From the NCBI GenBank assembly GCA_903918675.1, contig CAIXFE010000082.1:1-45885 (forward strand): a DNA stretch of 45,885 nucleotides, given 5' to 3'. Position numbers and translations under genes: made by a program. The first letter of the stretch is position 1, and each line of letters begins with the position of its first letter. Shown here in pieces: positions 258-26,514 of this stretch. This stretch comes from an uncultured bacterium. Lineage in GTDB: Bacteria; Patescibacteriota; Gracilibacteria; Absconditabacterales; Absconditicoccaceae. The notes under the pieces are model-generated. The model did not search any database, had not been told where the DNA came from, and saw nothing but the letters and a program-made list of their open reading frames with translations.

Positions 258-1781
258 ATGTTTAAACTCCAATCCACTTACCAGCCCGCAGGAGATCAAA
301 TTAGAGCGATCGATGAGATTCAGAAGATTTTTGCGAAGGGGAAAAATAAAGTGACGCTCTTAGGAGCTACGGGGACAGGAAAGACCTTTACGATGGCAAA
401 TATTATCCAACATTTACAGAAACCTACGCTCATTATTTCCCACAACAAAACACTCGCGGCTCAGCTTGCCACCGAATTCAAGTACTTCTTCCCAGACAAC
501 GCTGTACACTATTTTGTATCTTACTTCGACTACTACCAGCCTGAAAGTTATTTACCCGCACAAGGCCTCTACATAGAGAAGGAGGCGACCGTCAACCAGG
601 AGATAGAGATGTACAGACTCGCAACTATGGCTTCCCTGCTCAGCAGAAAAGACGTGATCGTCGTGGCTTCCGTGTCTTCGCTGTATGGATTGGGGCAGAA
701 AAGATTCTTTGAAGAAAATTGTCTGATCTTGGAAACCGGCAAAGAATATGATTTTAAATTACTCAAAAGGCAGCTTCTCCATATGCAATACAAACCCGTG
801 CAAAGTAAGATCGAACACGGGATGTTTGATATGCATGGCGAGACGGTAGATATTTTTTCGAGTACAGAGAAGTTTCTGTATAGACTGCACTTCAATGAGG
901 AGAAGCTAGAACTTATCGAGCTGAGAGATTCTATGAGTTATGAATTTAGAGGTAAAGTAAATAAAGTAACCGTCTGGCCGGCGACACAATTTTTGCAAGA
1001 CGTGACTGACCTGGAGTTTATCTTAGCACAGATGGACGCTGAGAAAGAAGAGAGAGTCAAAGAATTTGAAAAAGCTGGCATGCTCGTAGAAGCAGAAAGG
1101 ATCAAGAAAAGAGTCGAATATGATATTAGGATGATCAGAGAGACATGATTCGTAAATGGTATCGAGAACTACTCTCTCTACTTCGATCGCAGACTGCCTG
1201 GTCAGCCCCCAAATACGATCTTCGATTATTTCCCAGATGATTTCTTACTCATCATCGATGAATCACATATGACACTGCCCCAATTGCAGGCGATGCCTAG
1301 CGGCGACAAATCCAGAAAAATGAACCTCGTGAAATACTGATTTAGACTGCCATCGGCGATCGATCATAGACCTCTGAATTTTCAGGAGCTAGAAACGAAG
1401 CTTGGATGGAAGGATGAATTGAAAATTGAAAATTGAAAATTAGAAATTGCGGAGCTGTGAGAAACATATAAACATTTACAGAAGAAGATATGATTAGAAA
1501 CGTGAATCAAGATGAAGCAGCATGTAGATGCGAAAACAATCTTCCTTTCTGCGACACCTGCTGAATATGAATTAAAATTATCAGATAAAATTGTGGAGCA
1601 AATTATTAGACCGACAGGATTATTAGATCCGATCACGTACGTCTATCCCAAGTCAGGAGAATATGACCCACTGATGAAAAGTCTAGAAACTCTGATCGCC
1701 AAGAAGCCACATTTGAAAGAATTTTTGGAGTGATATAGTCTGAAGGATGGAGTGGAAGAAATTTTTGGTAATGAAGAATAG
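258..1781 (+). CDS. uvrB: UvrB excinuclease subunit, C-terminally truncated
   Basis: UvrB loads onto damaged DNA from UvrA and recruits UvrC in nucleotide excision repair. I start at ATG 258 ([14 protein letters not shown]) because the upstream part of the ORF is not UvrB-like. Visible are Walker A GATGTGKT (residues 36-43), the beta-hairpin ([21 protein letters not shown]), the DESH box (about 334-337) and LSATPAEYE followed by [13 protein letters not shown]. In-frame TGA fills conserved glycines (RET-G-FVNG, KY-G-FRLPSA). The product is 507 residues against about 660 in the family. It stops shortly after the RPTGLLDP segment in an unrelated tail, so helicase motifs IV-VI (including the GRAAR box) and the UVR motif are absent, and I do not find them in any frame nearby. 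A GAAAATT array is inserted in frame after the FQELE segment. The gene may be inactive, or a deletion or assembly error may have removed its end. Confidence 0.88.
1416..1449 (+). repeat. In-frame (TTGAAAA)n array inside uvrB
   Basis: Four degenerate 7-base units (TTGAAAA-like) occupy the variable stretch between the PLNFQELE and KTIFLSATP segments of UvrB and keep the reading frame, with one TGA read as Gly. The same unit recurs in hemW near 9021. Confidence 0.75.
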
Positions 1782-3268: not shown

Positions 3269-3349
3269 GGCGCGAAGGCCGCCTTGGTGGTGGACGAGCG
3301 TTTGGCTATCTTTCAGCACGGAGTGTTAAGCATTTATTTACAATTATTT

Positions 3350-4696
3350 ATGATGACTCAAGAGTTTAACTTTTCATTAATAAATCTCTGATGTACCAAA
3401 AACCTGGTCGATAGCCAGCATTTCCTGGGGCGTCTTTTTGATATTAGCATCAAGACTCCTGATTATACACTGAATTATTTCACGGATCCGTTTGATAAAA
3501 ACGCGGATATCGTTTTCGTGAATACCTGCGGATTTATTTCTTCATGAAGAGATGAAGCTGAACAAAATGTACGTAAACTTTTGAAGGCAGGAAAGATTGT
3601 CTATCTCTTGGGGTGTGCGGTTCAGTATTATAAACAGTTACAGGTTTCAGGTTCCAAGTTACAGGTTAGAAACGTCCATTATCTTTCACGGCACGATGTT
3701 ACATCGGTCAGTCTCAAGGATCTCATGCAATGATACAACAGTACAACTTTCTGAAATTTTGAATTTAACAAAGGACCAAGAGTGTATACCAATATTGAAA
3801 ATAAATTTGAATATCTCAAGATCGCTGAATGATGCGACAATCACTGCTCATTCTGCATCATCCCCCAACTCAGATGAAAACAAAAATCATTAGCGATAGA
3901 GAAAATTCTAACTGGAGTGAAACAGATGATCGATGCGTGAATCGAAGAGATTATCGTGATCGCGCAAGACACTACGAGATACGGGACCGACCTGTATGGA
4001 AAACCAGCTTTGCTTGAGCTTCTGAAGAGGATAGAAGAGATCTGATGAGAATTTAGATACAGACTCCTCTATCTCTATCCAGATATCGTGACGCTCAAAC
4101 AATTGGAGCAACTCACGAAGCTCAAGAAATTTATTCCTTACTTCGATGTCCCGCTTCAGCATATCAGTTCTTCGGTATTGAAAAGAATGGGAAGATTTTA
4201 CGATGAGTGATATATCGGAAAATTTTTGGATCAGATTAAGAAATTATTTCCAGTCCATTTCATCAGGACAAATTTGATCATAGGATTTCCTGGAGAGATG
4301 AAGGAAGATTTCCAACAGTTGAAGAAATTCGTGCAGGAAGAAAATTTCGACAATGTCGCATTGTTTGAATATCATGATGAGCCTCTCGCTCCATCGAGTA
4401 AATTGCTAGATAAAGTGCCGGATAGGGAGATTAGGAAAAGATTTAATGAAATGAAAACAATAGTCGAAAGTCTTAGATCCACAAGAGCCAAGATGAGAAA
4501 AGGGAAGGAAGAAATTGGTTACATTATGGATGTTGAGAGGTTGAGACGTTGAGAGATTGAGAGATTAACAATTAGGCCATGGCTTAATTGTCCGGAGATT
4601 GATGAGTATGATAAGATTTCTGCGAAGCAGATTATCGGATGCTTTGATGATTCTGAAGAACTGAAAATATGAGATAAGATAATCTATACCATATAG
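3350..4696 (+). CDS. rimO: Radical SAM methylthiotransferase RimO
   Basis: RimO methylthiolates the conserved aspartate of ribosomal protein S12, using two 4Fe-4S clusters and S-adenosylmethionine. Visible are the N-terminal UPF0004 cysteines (NLGCTKNLVDS, NTCGFIS, LLGCAV), the radical SAM motif EGCDNHCSFC (CX3CX2C) with CIIPQLRGKQKS, and the late core LIIGFPGE. A C-terminal TRAM domain follows (IRPWLNCPEIDEYDKI). CTKNLVDS and NTCGFIS favour RimO over MiaB. The start is ATGATG at 3350 in an A/T-rich leader without Shine-Dalgarno; the product has 448 residues, the usual length. Many conserved glycines are TGA, including those in LGC, EGC and LRGK. Two repeat arrays are inserted in frame, at 3635-3671 after LGCAVQYYK and at 4532-4566 inside the TRAM domain. 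Confidence 0.92.
3635..3671 (+). repeat. In-frame CAGGTT-type array in rimO
   Basis: Degenerate units ACAGGTT/TCAGGTT/CCAAGTT add about ten residues (LQVSGSKLQV) to the loop after the third UPF0004 cysteine. A similar AGGTAACAGGTAGAAGGT tract lies just after nrdR (19174-19201). Confidence 0.65.
4532..4566 (+). repeat. In-frame GTTGAGA array in the TRAM domain of rimO
   Basis: Five units of the type GTTGAGA/GATTGAGA insert VERLRRGEIERL between GYIMD and the conserved RPWLNCPEID segment. The frame is kept and one TGA is read as Gly. Confidence 0.65.
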
Positions 4697-8350: not shown

Positions 8351-9688
8351 TTGCTTTCCCTCTACATCCATATTCCTTTCTGTGCCAGTAAATGCGCTTA
8401 TTGTAGCTTCAATAGTTTGCCCATAGATTTTTCTGATAAACTCATTGATAATTATATCGTTGCGTTGAAAAAAGAGATCGATCATTATAGTGTGACGCTT
8501 ATGGATAAAGAAATTAAGACCCTGTATATCTGATGAGGGACGCCAAGCAGAATCTGAGTAGAAAGAATTATCGATATCGTGGAGTATATTGCGACAAAAT
8601 TTGATCTCGAGAATATGGCTGAATTTAGCATCGAACTTAACCCCTCCCCTGCTCAAGAGGTTTTGGATTTTGTAAAAAAGCTGAATCACAGGTACGCGAA
8701 GTTTCCCAGAGTGAGGTTTAGTTTTGGGATTCAGAGTCTGGATGATGAGATATTAAAAACTGTCTGAAGAGCATACTCTTTTGTCGGAATCACAGATTTC
8801 TTAAGGAAGCTCGTACATCTCAAGCAAGATAACAATGTCTTCAATTTCGATTTCATCGCATTCGGCAAATTTCATGTCAGCAAAAATGGAACTAAACAAT
8901 TACGACATGATTTTAATCGTGAATTTTTCCAGAAATTTCTAGAAAGCGGGCGGGCAGATAGTATCTCCCTCTATACTTTGGAACATCATGAAAATTCTAA
9001 GCGATATAGTGATCTCATCGGAATTGAAAATTGAAAATTGTCCTTACAGGATGAAAGGATTGAGGATTGAAAATGATGCAATACATACTGAGAAGTCGAA
9101 AGTCTAAGGTCTAAGGACCAAGCTCTAAGTTCTGATGAGAACATTATGGAAGAATTTATTTTCTTGAAAGATATTATTTTGCATGCCTGATTTTCTAGAT
9201 ATGAAATATCTAACTTCACTAAGGCAAGCAAGGCATCGATCCACAATATGGTGTATCGGAATATGGAAAATTATTTGGGACTTGGTTTATCAGCAAGCTC
9301 CTTTCTCCCAATGACTAATGACCAATGACTAATGACTCATGTATTTCCATCGTTCCAGAATTCTATCGTTCCATCGTTCTGAACGCGTTGGACCAATACC
9401 GCCGATATGAAAACCTATCTCGAGGGAAATCGAGTCGATGAAAAGCAAGTCCAAACGCTGGACAATTCAGACCTTCTGATAGAAGAATTTTTCCTCAGCC
9501 TGAGAACAAGAGAAGGGATTGCTGATATTGATAAGTTTAAAGACGTACTCATTCCAAATTACAAATGACTAATTACGAATTACGAATGAGCGTGATTGGT
9601 TCTTTTCGACTGAACAAAATTACAACTCACTGATGAGGGAATGAATGTATCGAATACTATTGTCACTGAATTATTGAGAGAAATCTAA
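8351..9688 (+). CDS. hemW: HemW-like radical SAM protein (coproporphyrinogen oxidase family)
   Basis: HemN/HemW-family protein. The N-terminus LYIHIPFCASKCAYC holds the CX3CX2C cluster motif, followed by YIGGGTPS (first two glycines TGA), ELNPSP, RFSFGIQSLDD, the HemW-like SRYEISNFTKAS and NYLGLGLSASSF, and a C-terminal winged-helix-like LQLTDEGM. HemW is a heme chaperone in studied bacteria, whereas HemN oxidises coproporphyrinogen III; without other heme genes here the chaperone-type name is safer. The start is TTG 8351; there is no ATG, and a TAA lies just upstream. The 445 residues are longer than typical HemW because short-repeat arrays are inserted in frame at about 9021-9040, 9097-9140, 9308-9340, 9344-9381 and 9555-9590. 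All are multiples of three and read through TGA where needed. Confidence 0.85.
9021..9140 (+). repeat. Two in-frame arrays in hemW (GAAAATT and CTAAGGT units)
   Basis: GAATTGAAAATTGAAAATTG is followed after about 55 bases by AAAGTCTAAGGTCTAAGG and related units. They lie between the SLYTLEHHE segment and the SRYEISNF segment. The first matches the uvrB array and the second matches the intergenic CTTAG arrays at 10900, 14945 and 35800. Confidence 0.65.
9308..9381 (+). repeat. Two adjacent in-frame arrays in hemW (AATGACT and CCATCGTT units)
   Basis: CCAATGACTAATGACCAATG and TTCCATCGTTCCAGAATTC type tracts encode PMTNDQGLMTHV and FPSFQNSIVPSFG between the conserved SASSF and RWTNTADMKTY segments. 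Both are expanded heptamer-like repeats, read in frame. Confidence 0.7.
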
Positions 9689-9861
9689 ACAGATTATTGG
9701 GCGTTTGGAATCGGGGATCTGGAATCGGGAATATCCCTGCCAAATAAACAGATTCCCAATAAACCGATAAACCATTTTCCCCTTGAATCCTTGTCATAAA
9801 TGACTACATTGATTATGAGCATAGTAGAATATGCTTATTTTTTATTTACTCAGAAAAAAAT

Positions 9862-24870: not shown

Positions 24871-26289
24871 ATGAAAACATTCCAAAATTTCTTCATAGAA
24901 TCCTGCAATTTCGATGTACAAACGCTGACGGCGAGCTTCAGCTATAGTTTTGATCATGAGGTAAAATTTACGGAGACAATAAATTTCTCCAGCCCATGAT
25001 TTACATCTATCGTGAACATCGATCCGAGCGTGATGCAGCATCTGCTTTTTCATCTTTCTTTAGCGATAGGGATCAGTTATTACAAACTTTGTCCTACTCC
25101 GAATATCACTGTGCAGAATTGATATTTAAGCAATGACCAACAAACCTTTCGAAATACTTTCTATCTCCATGGATTAGGAGAGTATTTTTTTAGAAATAAG
25201 ATTTCTCCTAAAGGATTAGCGCAATTTGTGAATGGAAAAACAGAAAAAGATTTTAATTTTTTGCATGCGCATTTTGCGAGTGAGAGCAAGAAAATTATGG
25301 TAGCGATAGGTGGAGGGAAAGATAGTTGTGTCAGTGCAGAACTCGTGAAAAAGGCCTGACTCCCCCTCTCCACTTCTACTTTCTGAAAAGATTACTTTCT
25401 TCATCAGATAGTGAATGAAAAAATAGGTGCGCAAAGATTGGTCATGAAAAGGACGATGGATCCTCAACTTTTCGCGATGAATGAAGAAGGATATTACAAT
25501 GGGCATGTGCCCATCAGTGGCATGATCGCCTTTGTCCTCGTCACTGCAGCATATCTCTATGATTACAAATATATCATCATGTCCAATGAGAAAAGTGCGA
25601 ATGAGTGAAATACAATCCTTGATGGCATCGATGTCAATCATCAACGAAGCAAAAGTCTGGCATTTGAAGAGGCATTTGCTCAATATATAAAAAATGCACT
25701 TTCTCCCGATGTGAAATATTTCAGTCTCTTGAGAGGTATGTATGAGATCAAAATCGCTCAACTTTTTGCCTGATATCCACAATATTTTGACGTCTTCAGC
25801 AGCTGTAATACTAATTTCAGAATTCTTGAAGAGCTTCCAGCATCTAGCATCCAGCATCCAGCTTCAAGCTCCAACCTTCCACCTGCGCCTGCGGCGCGCC
25901 GTCGATGCTGATCCTGCCCGAAATGTGCTTTCGTATATGTGATTCTGAGACCATTCGTGGATAAAATCCAGACTCAAACTATTTGGTGAAAAGAATTTTT
26001 CGAAGATGAAACATTATTGCAGACATTTAAACAATTGCTTGGGATCGAAGGGATGAAGCCATTTGAATGCGTAGGGACCAATGAAGAAGTAGTCTTGGGG
26101 ATGAAAAAAAGTTATGAACTTTGGACTGAAAAATATCACGAACCGTTACCTGTGATCTTACAGATGTTTGCTGACCTTGTTTTGCCTACGATGAACGAAA
26201 CCGATTTCATTGCACTTGAACAAAAACTCATGCATATCGATCAGGAGGATATGATCCCTGCTGAGCTTCGTTTTCTTTTACCTTTGTAA
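24871..26289 (+). CDS. murL: MurL, UDP-MurNAc-L-Ala-L-Glu epimerase
   Basis: In Xanthomonas, MurL epimerises the terminal L-Glu of UDP-MurNAc-L-Ala-L-Glu to D-Glu after MurD2 adds L-Glu. The 472-residue product shows the family pattern: AIGISYYKLCPTPNI, FYLHGLGEYFFRN, the nucleotide-binding loop MVAIGGGKDSCVSAELVKKAG, MDPQLFAMNEEGYYNGHVPISGMIAFV, IIMSNEKSANEGN, DVNHQRSKSLAFEEAF and YFSLLRGMYEIKIAQLFA. SCNTNFR and RRCGSCPKCAFVYVILRPF follow, then LLGIEGMKPFECVGTNEEV. TGA supplies Gly in several of these. A repeat array inserts about 20 residues between SCNTNFR and RRCGSCPKC. Start ATG 24871; a 44-residue ORF and a terminator follow. No murI-type racemase is in the window. Confidence 0.9.
25831..25900 (+). 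repeat. In-frame CCAGCAT/TCCAGCT array in murL
   Basis: Units CTTCCAGCATCTAGCATCCAG and CTTCAAGCTCCAACC, ending in the GC-rich palindrome-like GCGCCTGCGGCGCGC, encode LPASSIQHPASSSNLPPAPAARR. The insertion separates two conserved MurL segments and keeps the frame. Confidence 0.7.
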
Positions 26290-26436: not shown

Positions 26437-26444
26437 ATATTAGC

Positions 26445-26514
26445 TTCTAGGTTCTAGGTTCTAGGTTCTAGGTTCTAGGTTCTAGGTTCTAGATTCTAGA
26501 TTCTAAGTTCTCAA
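26445..26514 (+). repeat. TTCTAGG heptamer tandem array, ten units
   Basis: Seven exact TTCTAGG units are followed by TTCTAGA, TTCTAGA and TTCTAAG. The exact 7-base period makes this the cleanest example of the heptamer tracts scattered through the window. It lies between the 44-residue ORF and the terminator. Confidence 0.9.

Follow-up and report, generated by a model that had tools for sequence, protein, structure and literature searches.

Heptad and octad repeat arrays of intergenic type lie in frame within a hemW-like gene of an Absconditabacteria genome

The hemW gene and its repeat arrays

The window analyzed here is a stretch of 45,885 nt, one contig (C82) of a 1.39-Mb metagenome-assembled genome (G000; 92% complete, 5% contamination). 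This host reads TGA as Gly (table 25), and the relatives of its hemW that carry names belong to candidate division SR1/Absconditabacteria (e.g., CP006913.1 and JAPLUT010000004.1). The gene and the repeats within it are the following:

8351..9688, + strand: hemW-like gene, 445 aa under table 25, with TIGR00539 as best model and a HemN_C domain (PF06969)
9022..9040, + strand: array 1, AAAATTG heptads in loop A (TRF); disordered in the structural model, residues 232-262
9037..9055, + strand: non-tandem core of loop A, ATTGTCCTTACAGGATGAA, a dispersed element
9093..9133, + strand: array 2, TCTAAGG heptads in loop A
9310..9341, + strand: array 3, AATGACT heptads in loop B (TRF)
9345..9379, + strand: array 4, TTCCATCG octads in loop B (TRF)
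9551..9587, + strand: array 5, AATTACG heptads, encoding a conserved helix (residues 408-417)

An earlier, sequence-only reading had reported five in-frame tracts in hemW, with the frame preserved and TGA read as Gly. The tracts are real and all lie within the single open frame of 8351-9688, which has 445 open codons, although its start codon is unsure (TTG at 8351). Fifteen of its codons are TGA read as Gly, 9 of them within the repeat stretches. The repeat units needed correction. Their lengths are 7, 7, 7, 8, and 7 nt, and the tracts given as CTAAGG and AATTACGA are really heptads. According to TRF, each array holds ~2.5-4.6 copies; the arrays are imperfect and are sited mid-gene or near the end.

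Chance is excluded as the source of the hemW arrays. Four heptad arrays of such strength were seen, compared to a mean of 0.05 when synonymous codons were resampled with the protein kept, and 0/2000 resamples reached four. Shuffling the codon order of hemW gave 0.0005 heptad arrays. The octad tract was weaker, with P ~0.003 for its own stretch.

TIGR00539 (HemW) was the best curated model for the protein, at 139.1 bits, which is under the curated cut-off of 205.4. We take as a HemW feature the radical SAM motif CxxxCxxC, lacking the fourth Cys that HemN has. The cluster motif is intact here (CASKCAYCSF), as it is in every fetched homologue. The motif HNxxYW is presumably the heme-binding motif of HemW. 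Residues 302-307 (9242-9259) read HNMVYR in G000 and HNMVYW in several siblings, the Trp of this presumed motif being replaced in G000. The AlphaFold2 model of the protein had a mean pLDDT of 83.8, with E. coli HemN (1OLT) as the nearest solved structure, and pLDDT fell below 50 only at residues 232-262, inside loop A. Compared with G007, differences at the three codon positions were 0.27/0.15/0.52, and hemW outside the repeat loops is under constraint.

The repeat-bearing loops across relatives

The hemW alignment contained 30 homologous loci, the G000 gene included, and the tree was calculated from 377 core columns. G000 is the first branch in an eight-species clade (support 100/100), in which the other seven are joined at 95/86. 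All homologues in the tree are open.

With 54 residues in G000 compared to 18-38 in 23/27 others, loop A (9021-9138) is expanded relative to the family. The length of loop B is 27 residues in G000 and 20-29 in 16/20 outgroups, whereas five siblings have only 4. According to the tree, this four-residue loop is a derived shortening (a loss), so arrays 3 and 4 fill a loop of ordinary length. Loop B looks like an insertion if the siblings alone are compared; the tree rules this out. At array 5, every complete homologue aligns over 22 residues (VPNYESLLxxYxxxGL), and this region is predicted as a helix at high confidence by AlphaFold2. Because the relatives have as many homologous residues there, existing sequence was probably rewritten at this site, not interrupted.

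These comparisons bear on two earlier claims, that the tracts interrupt hemW between conserved blocks and that intergenic-type repeats invade or expand inside coding loops. The former holds for loops A and B, which are poorly conserved, but not for array 5, which lies within a conserved block. As for the latter, the presence of repeats within genes is general, but only loop A showed a net expansion. Loop B is of normal length, and array 5 cannot be called an insertion, since relatives have homologous residues there in unchanged number.

In other species, the corresponding hemW loops are occupied by different heptads or by REP-like palindromes. In G005, the palindromes GTCATTCCGAG and GTCATTCTGAG are found in loops A and B. 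Sibling G007 has GGTACGAGGAACGAGG heptads in loop A and, like G000, AATGACT heptads in loop B, while the hemW loops of G010, G028, and G025 contain palindromic repeats. For two of the relatives' loop repeats, the patterns recur elsewhere in their own genomes. In addition, an N-terminal hemW loop is equal in length in G001 and G002 and is periodic in G001 only.

Repeat families in the genome and in other genes

The genome was sampled over 504 kb, about a third of G000, and compared with 1.16 Mb of G008 and 0.26 Mb of G007; one sibling was sampled nearly whole, and all are metagenome-assembled genomes. The lags of tandem runs in G000 peak solely at 7/14/21/28, 8/16/24, and 15 nt, with almost no runs at lags such as 5, 10, 11, and 13. 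Lag-7 runs number 46 per 100 kb in intergenic sequence compared to 3.6 in coding sequence. The lag peaks recur, in weaker form, in siblings G008 and G007. The heptad units are diverse, with 127 heptad arrays falling into 54 families.

It had been claimed that the tracts in hemW are of types found in intergenic gaps, and the same types were indeed found elsewhere in G000, mostly between genes. The hemW tracts are members of genome-wide families of 7/8-nt repeats that are lineage-specific. The loop A sequence resembles 28 other places in the 504 kb of G000, 0 in the 1.16 Mb of G008, and 0 in the 0.26 Mb of G007. Loop B matched 14 places in G000 and the stretch termed loop C matched 10, compared to 0 or 1 for three stretches of the hemW core. 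With up to 2 mismatches, the 19-nt ATTGTCCTTACAGGATGAA core was found in 11 copies in G000 and 0 in 40 relatives, an absence that is not absolute because some of these relatives are incomplete. A number of these copies fall within long frames, most of them being read as LSLQDK. Of all the evidence, this core points most strongly to copying as a recent means of dispersal specific to the species.

Three loci (L132, L133, and L136, from ~1500) share a longer composite consisting of the GTTGTCCTTACAGGATAAA core and then the palindrome GAGACGCATTGCATGCGTC. This composite may be a full-length mobile element, with hemW loop A holding a part of it. The longest array in the window, TAGGTTC in ~10 copies with a 93% match, is intergenic (26441-26511). 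Directly 3' of the hemW stop, at 9703-9735, lies GGAATCGGGGATCTGGAATCGGGAAT, a GGGAATC-type heptad tract resembling repeats of Xanthomonas and Nostoc that form quadruplexes (PMC4692102).

Arrays were also found by TRF in other genes of the window:

1417..1449, + strand: AATTGAA heptads in the gene at 156-1781
3637..3668, + strand: GTTACAG heptads in the RimO gene at 3284-4693; the G007 loop there has other heptads
4532..4563, + strand: GTTGAGAG octads in the RimO gene; gap-free compared to G008
25832..25873, + strand: AGCATCC heptads in the MurL-like gene at 24871-26289; 41 residues in G000, 25 in five siblings

The MurL-like gene is a better polarized case of insertion. Outgroup G010 also looks heptad-like in this segment, and G005 has 33 residues there when counted over a slightly longer reference frame.

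Next, 209 non-overlapping pairs of orthologues from G000 and G008 were compared, with segments of at least 6 residues that are longer in one genome being scored. Polarity is known for hemW and the MurL-like gene only, and the segment counts that follow describe location, not polarity. Arrays of 7/8 nt were found in 12/40 segments longer in G000 compared to 24/2400 matched stretches (1%), and in 1/25 segments longer in G008. At control lags, 0 arrays were found in the segments longer in G000 among these pairs. The arrays prefer variable segments. Together with the dispersed families, the 12/40 segments support, as a general matter, the entry of intergenic-type repeats into genes. There were 37 arrays in regions aligned to G008. 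Fifteen lie in segments longer in G000, 11 are gap-free, 9 show a small net change, and 2 show the reverse. In nine strictly gap-free arrays, identity to G008 was 34% inside compared to 56% in the flanks.

Origin of the arrays and relation to known repeats

We think it probable that the short repeat families of G000, which are mainly intergenic, also colonize coding sequence by copying and slippage and are then filtered by frame, stops, and structure. The tracts would be copies of the 7- and 8-nt families, some with linked non-tandem cores. They would enter genes by the process that spreads and reshuffles repeats between genes, namely copying from locus to locus together with slippage within arrays. 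Survivors would be those with a net length change that is a multiple of three, a frame without TAA or TAG, and a site tolerant of new residues. In hemW, loop A would have been expanded to a disordered segment, loop B rewritten at normal length, and the helix at array 5 rewritten in place. Reading TGA as Gly would render more repeat frames translatable. The fraction of open frames per heptad array rises from 27% to 37% with TGA as Gly, and this recoding may have helped the repeats persist. The residues encoded by the repeats are most likely tolerated passengers rather than a new function. We identified neither a transposase nor a target duplication or empty site for the repeats, and plain insertion would not explain the 11/37 arrays that are gap-free compared to G008.

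Two ideas related to translation were also considered. Heptads are not an especially translatable kind of sequence, since open frames in G000 (0.37) were fewer than in shuffles (0.48) under code 25. The AATGACT arrays gave a sign of selection against TAA at their constrained position that is suggestive only (P 0.10).

Because the units are so diverse, much may arise locally. If the origin were local only, slippage would start from chance coding seeds, and the likeness to intergenic tracts would reflect a common slippage bias, not copying. Such seeds are present, e.g., ATTACGA in siblings at the array 5 site and in the N-terminal loop of G001 and G002. Among long simple repeats in bacteria, heptads are also the commonest type, and polymerase slippage has been proposed for them (PMC4679880). 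However, a non-tandem 19-nt core that 11 loci share and 40 relatives lack, together with the resemblance of the whole of loop A to 28 other loci, points away from this explanation, and each 7-nt slippage step shifts the frame. We regard local origin by itself as unlikely. Overwriting without length change, by templated rewriting (either gene conversion from one array to another or dislocated synthesis in a 7/8-nt register), would fit array 5 and loop B, which are altered in sequence at constant length. It would also fit the 11 gap-free arrays and the N-terminal loop that is periodic in G001 alone. This explanation is doubtful, however, since templated differences at lags 7/8 were not enriched beyond the discrete arrays, replacement followed by selection on length gives the same picture, and the lower identity inside arrays (34% compared to 56%) is typical of any variable segment. 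Pervasive slipped templating across the genome was excluded, since at sites differing between G000 and G008 the frequency with which the genome's own base equals the one 7 or 8 nt away was not above that at other lags. It is rather improbable that an undescribed process of this lineage writes 7/8-nt periodicity at discrete sites without length change, recoding conserved helices and loops in housekeeping proteins, with TGA as Gly making it survivable.

Two further explanations concern hemW itself. The bit score below the curated TIGR00539 cut-off (139 compared to 205) and the replacement of HNxxYW by HNxxYR could mean that the arrays mark a decayed gene without function. Against this, the 445 codons are open, the cluster motif is intact, the fold is confident, and the codon-position differences from G007 argue for constraint. 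The siblings also score low on the general HemW model because the family is divergent, and a decayed hemW is very improbable. Since the units are not multiples of three, one unit gained or lost would shift the frame, and heptad slippage might turn hemW on and off. But these arrays are short and imperfect and lie in the middle of the gene or close to its end, and every homologue in the tree is open; a phase-variable switch of this kind is hardly credible.

For colonization of genes by copying and slippage, the closest known cases are the Rickettsia palindromic elements (RPE) and the heptad repeats of the cyanobacterial type. RPE are described in PMC10969869 as palindromic units of ~150 bp found in frame inside unrelated housekeeping genes (Ogata 2000, 2002). 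Like them, the short repeats of G000 are dispersed in intergenic sequence and in frame within unrelated protein genes. In contrast to the ~150-bp palindrome of RPE, which encodes a conserved peptide, the hemW tracts are tandem 7/8-nt repeats without a palindrome, the LSLQDK core is 19 nt, and arrays are also found at unchanged length. Palindromes do occur in the equivalent hemW loops of G005, G010, and G028. The heptanucleotide repeats (STRR) of cyanobacteria, Beggiatoaceae, and Xanthomonas are mainly intergenic (PMC4679880, PMC4692102, PMC2670836), and the title of Vioque 1997, as cited in PMC2858038, places STRR inside the RNase P RNA gene. The 7-nt arrays of G000 are likewise degenerate and tandem, and they occur throughout the genome, mostly in intergenic sequence. 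Unlike STRR, they occur in many conserved protein genes, include an octad class, and belong to a candidate phylum with TGA as Gly. The tandem repeats of Borgs are similar in being found in both intergenic sequence and ORFs, in their fast turnover, and in often encoding disordered protein segments. However, Borg units within ORFs are always divisible by three (PMC9879509). With imperfect units of 7 or 8 nt, the G000 arrays preserve the frame only by their overall length.

In the literature searched, we found no case of a recoded candidate phylum with heptad and octad families inside many of its conserved genes. What is new is that, in a recoded lineage, units not divisible by three occur within many conserved genes. 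This would be another lineage besides Rickettsia in which repeats of an intergenic kind colonize housekeeping coding sequence genome-wide, here with unit lengths expected to break the frame. Since the repeats make up parts of functioning genes like hemW, they would keep reshaping proteins, and protein loops from such genomes can be translated repeats, not adapted sequence. The origin and spread of 7-nt repeats in bacteria become testable, as does whether losing the TGA stop raises the tolerance of genes for invading repeats. In the majority of the other families in this class, homologues lack in-frame TGA, so standard-code neighbors exist for a comparison of repeat tolerance.
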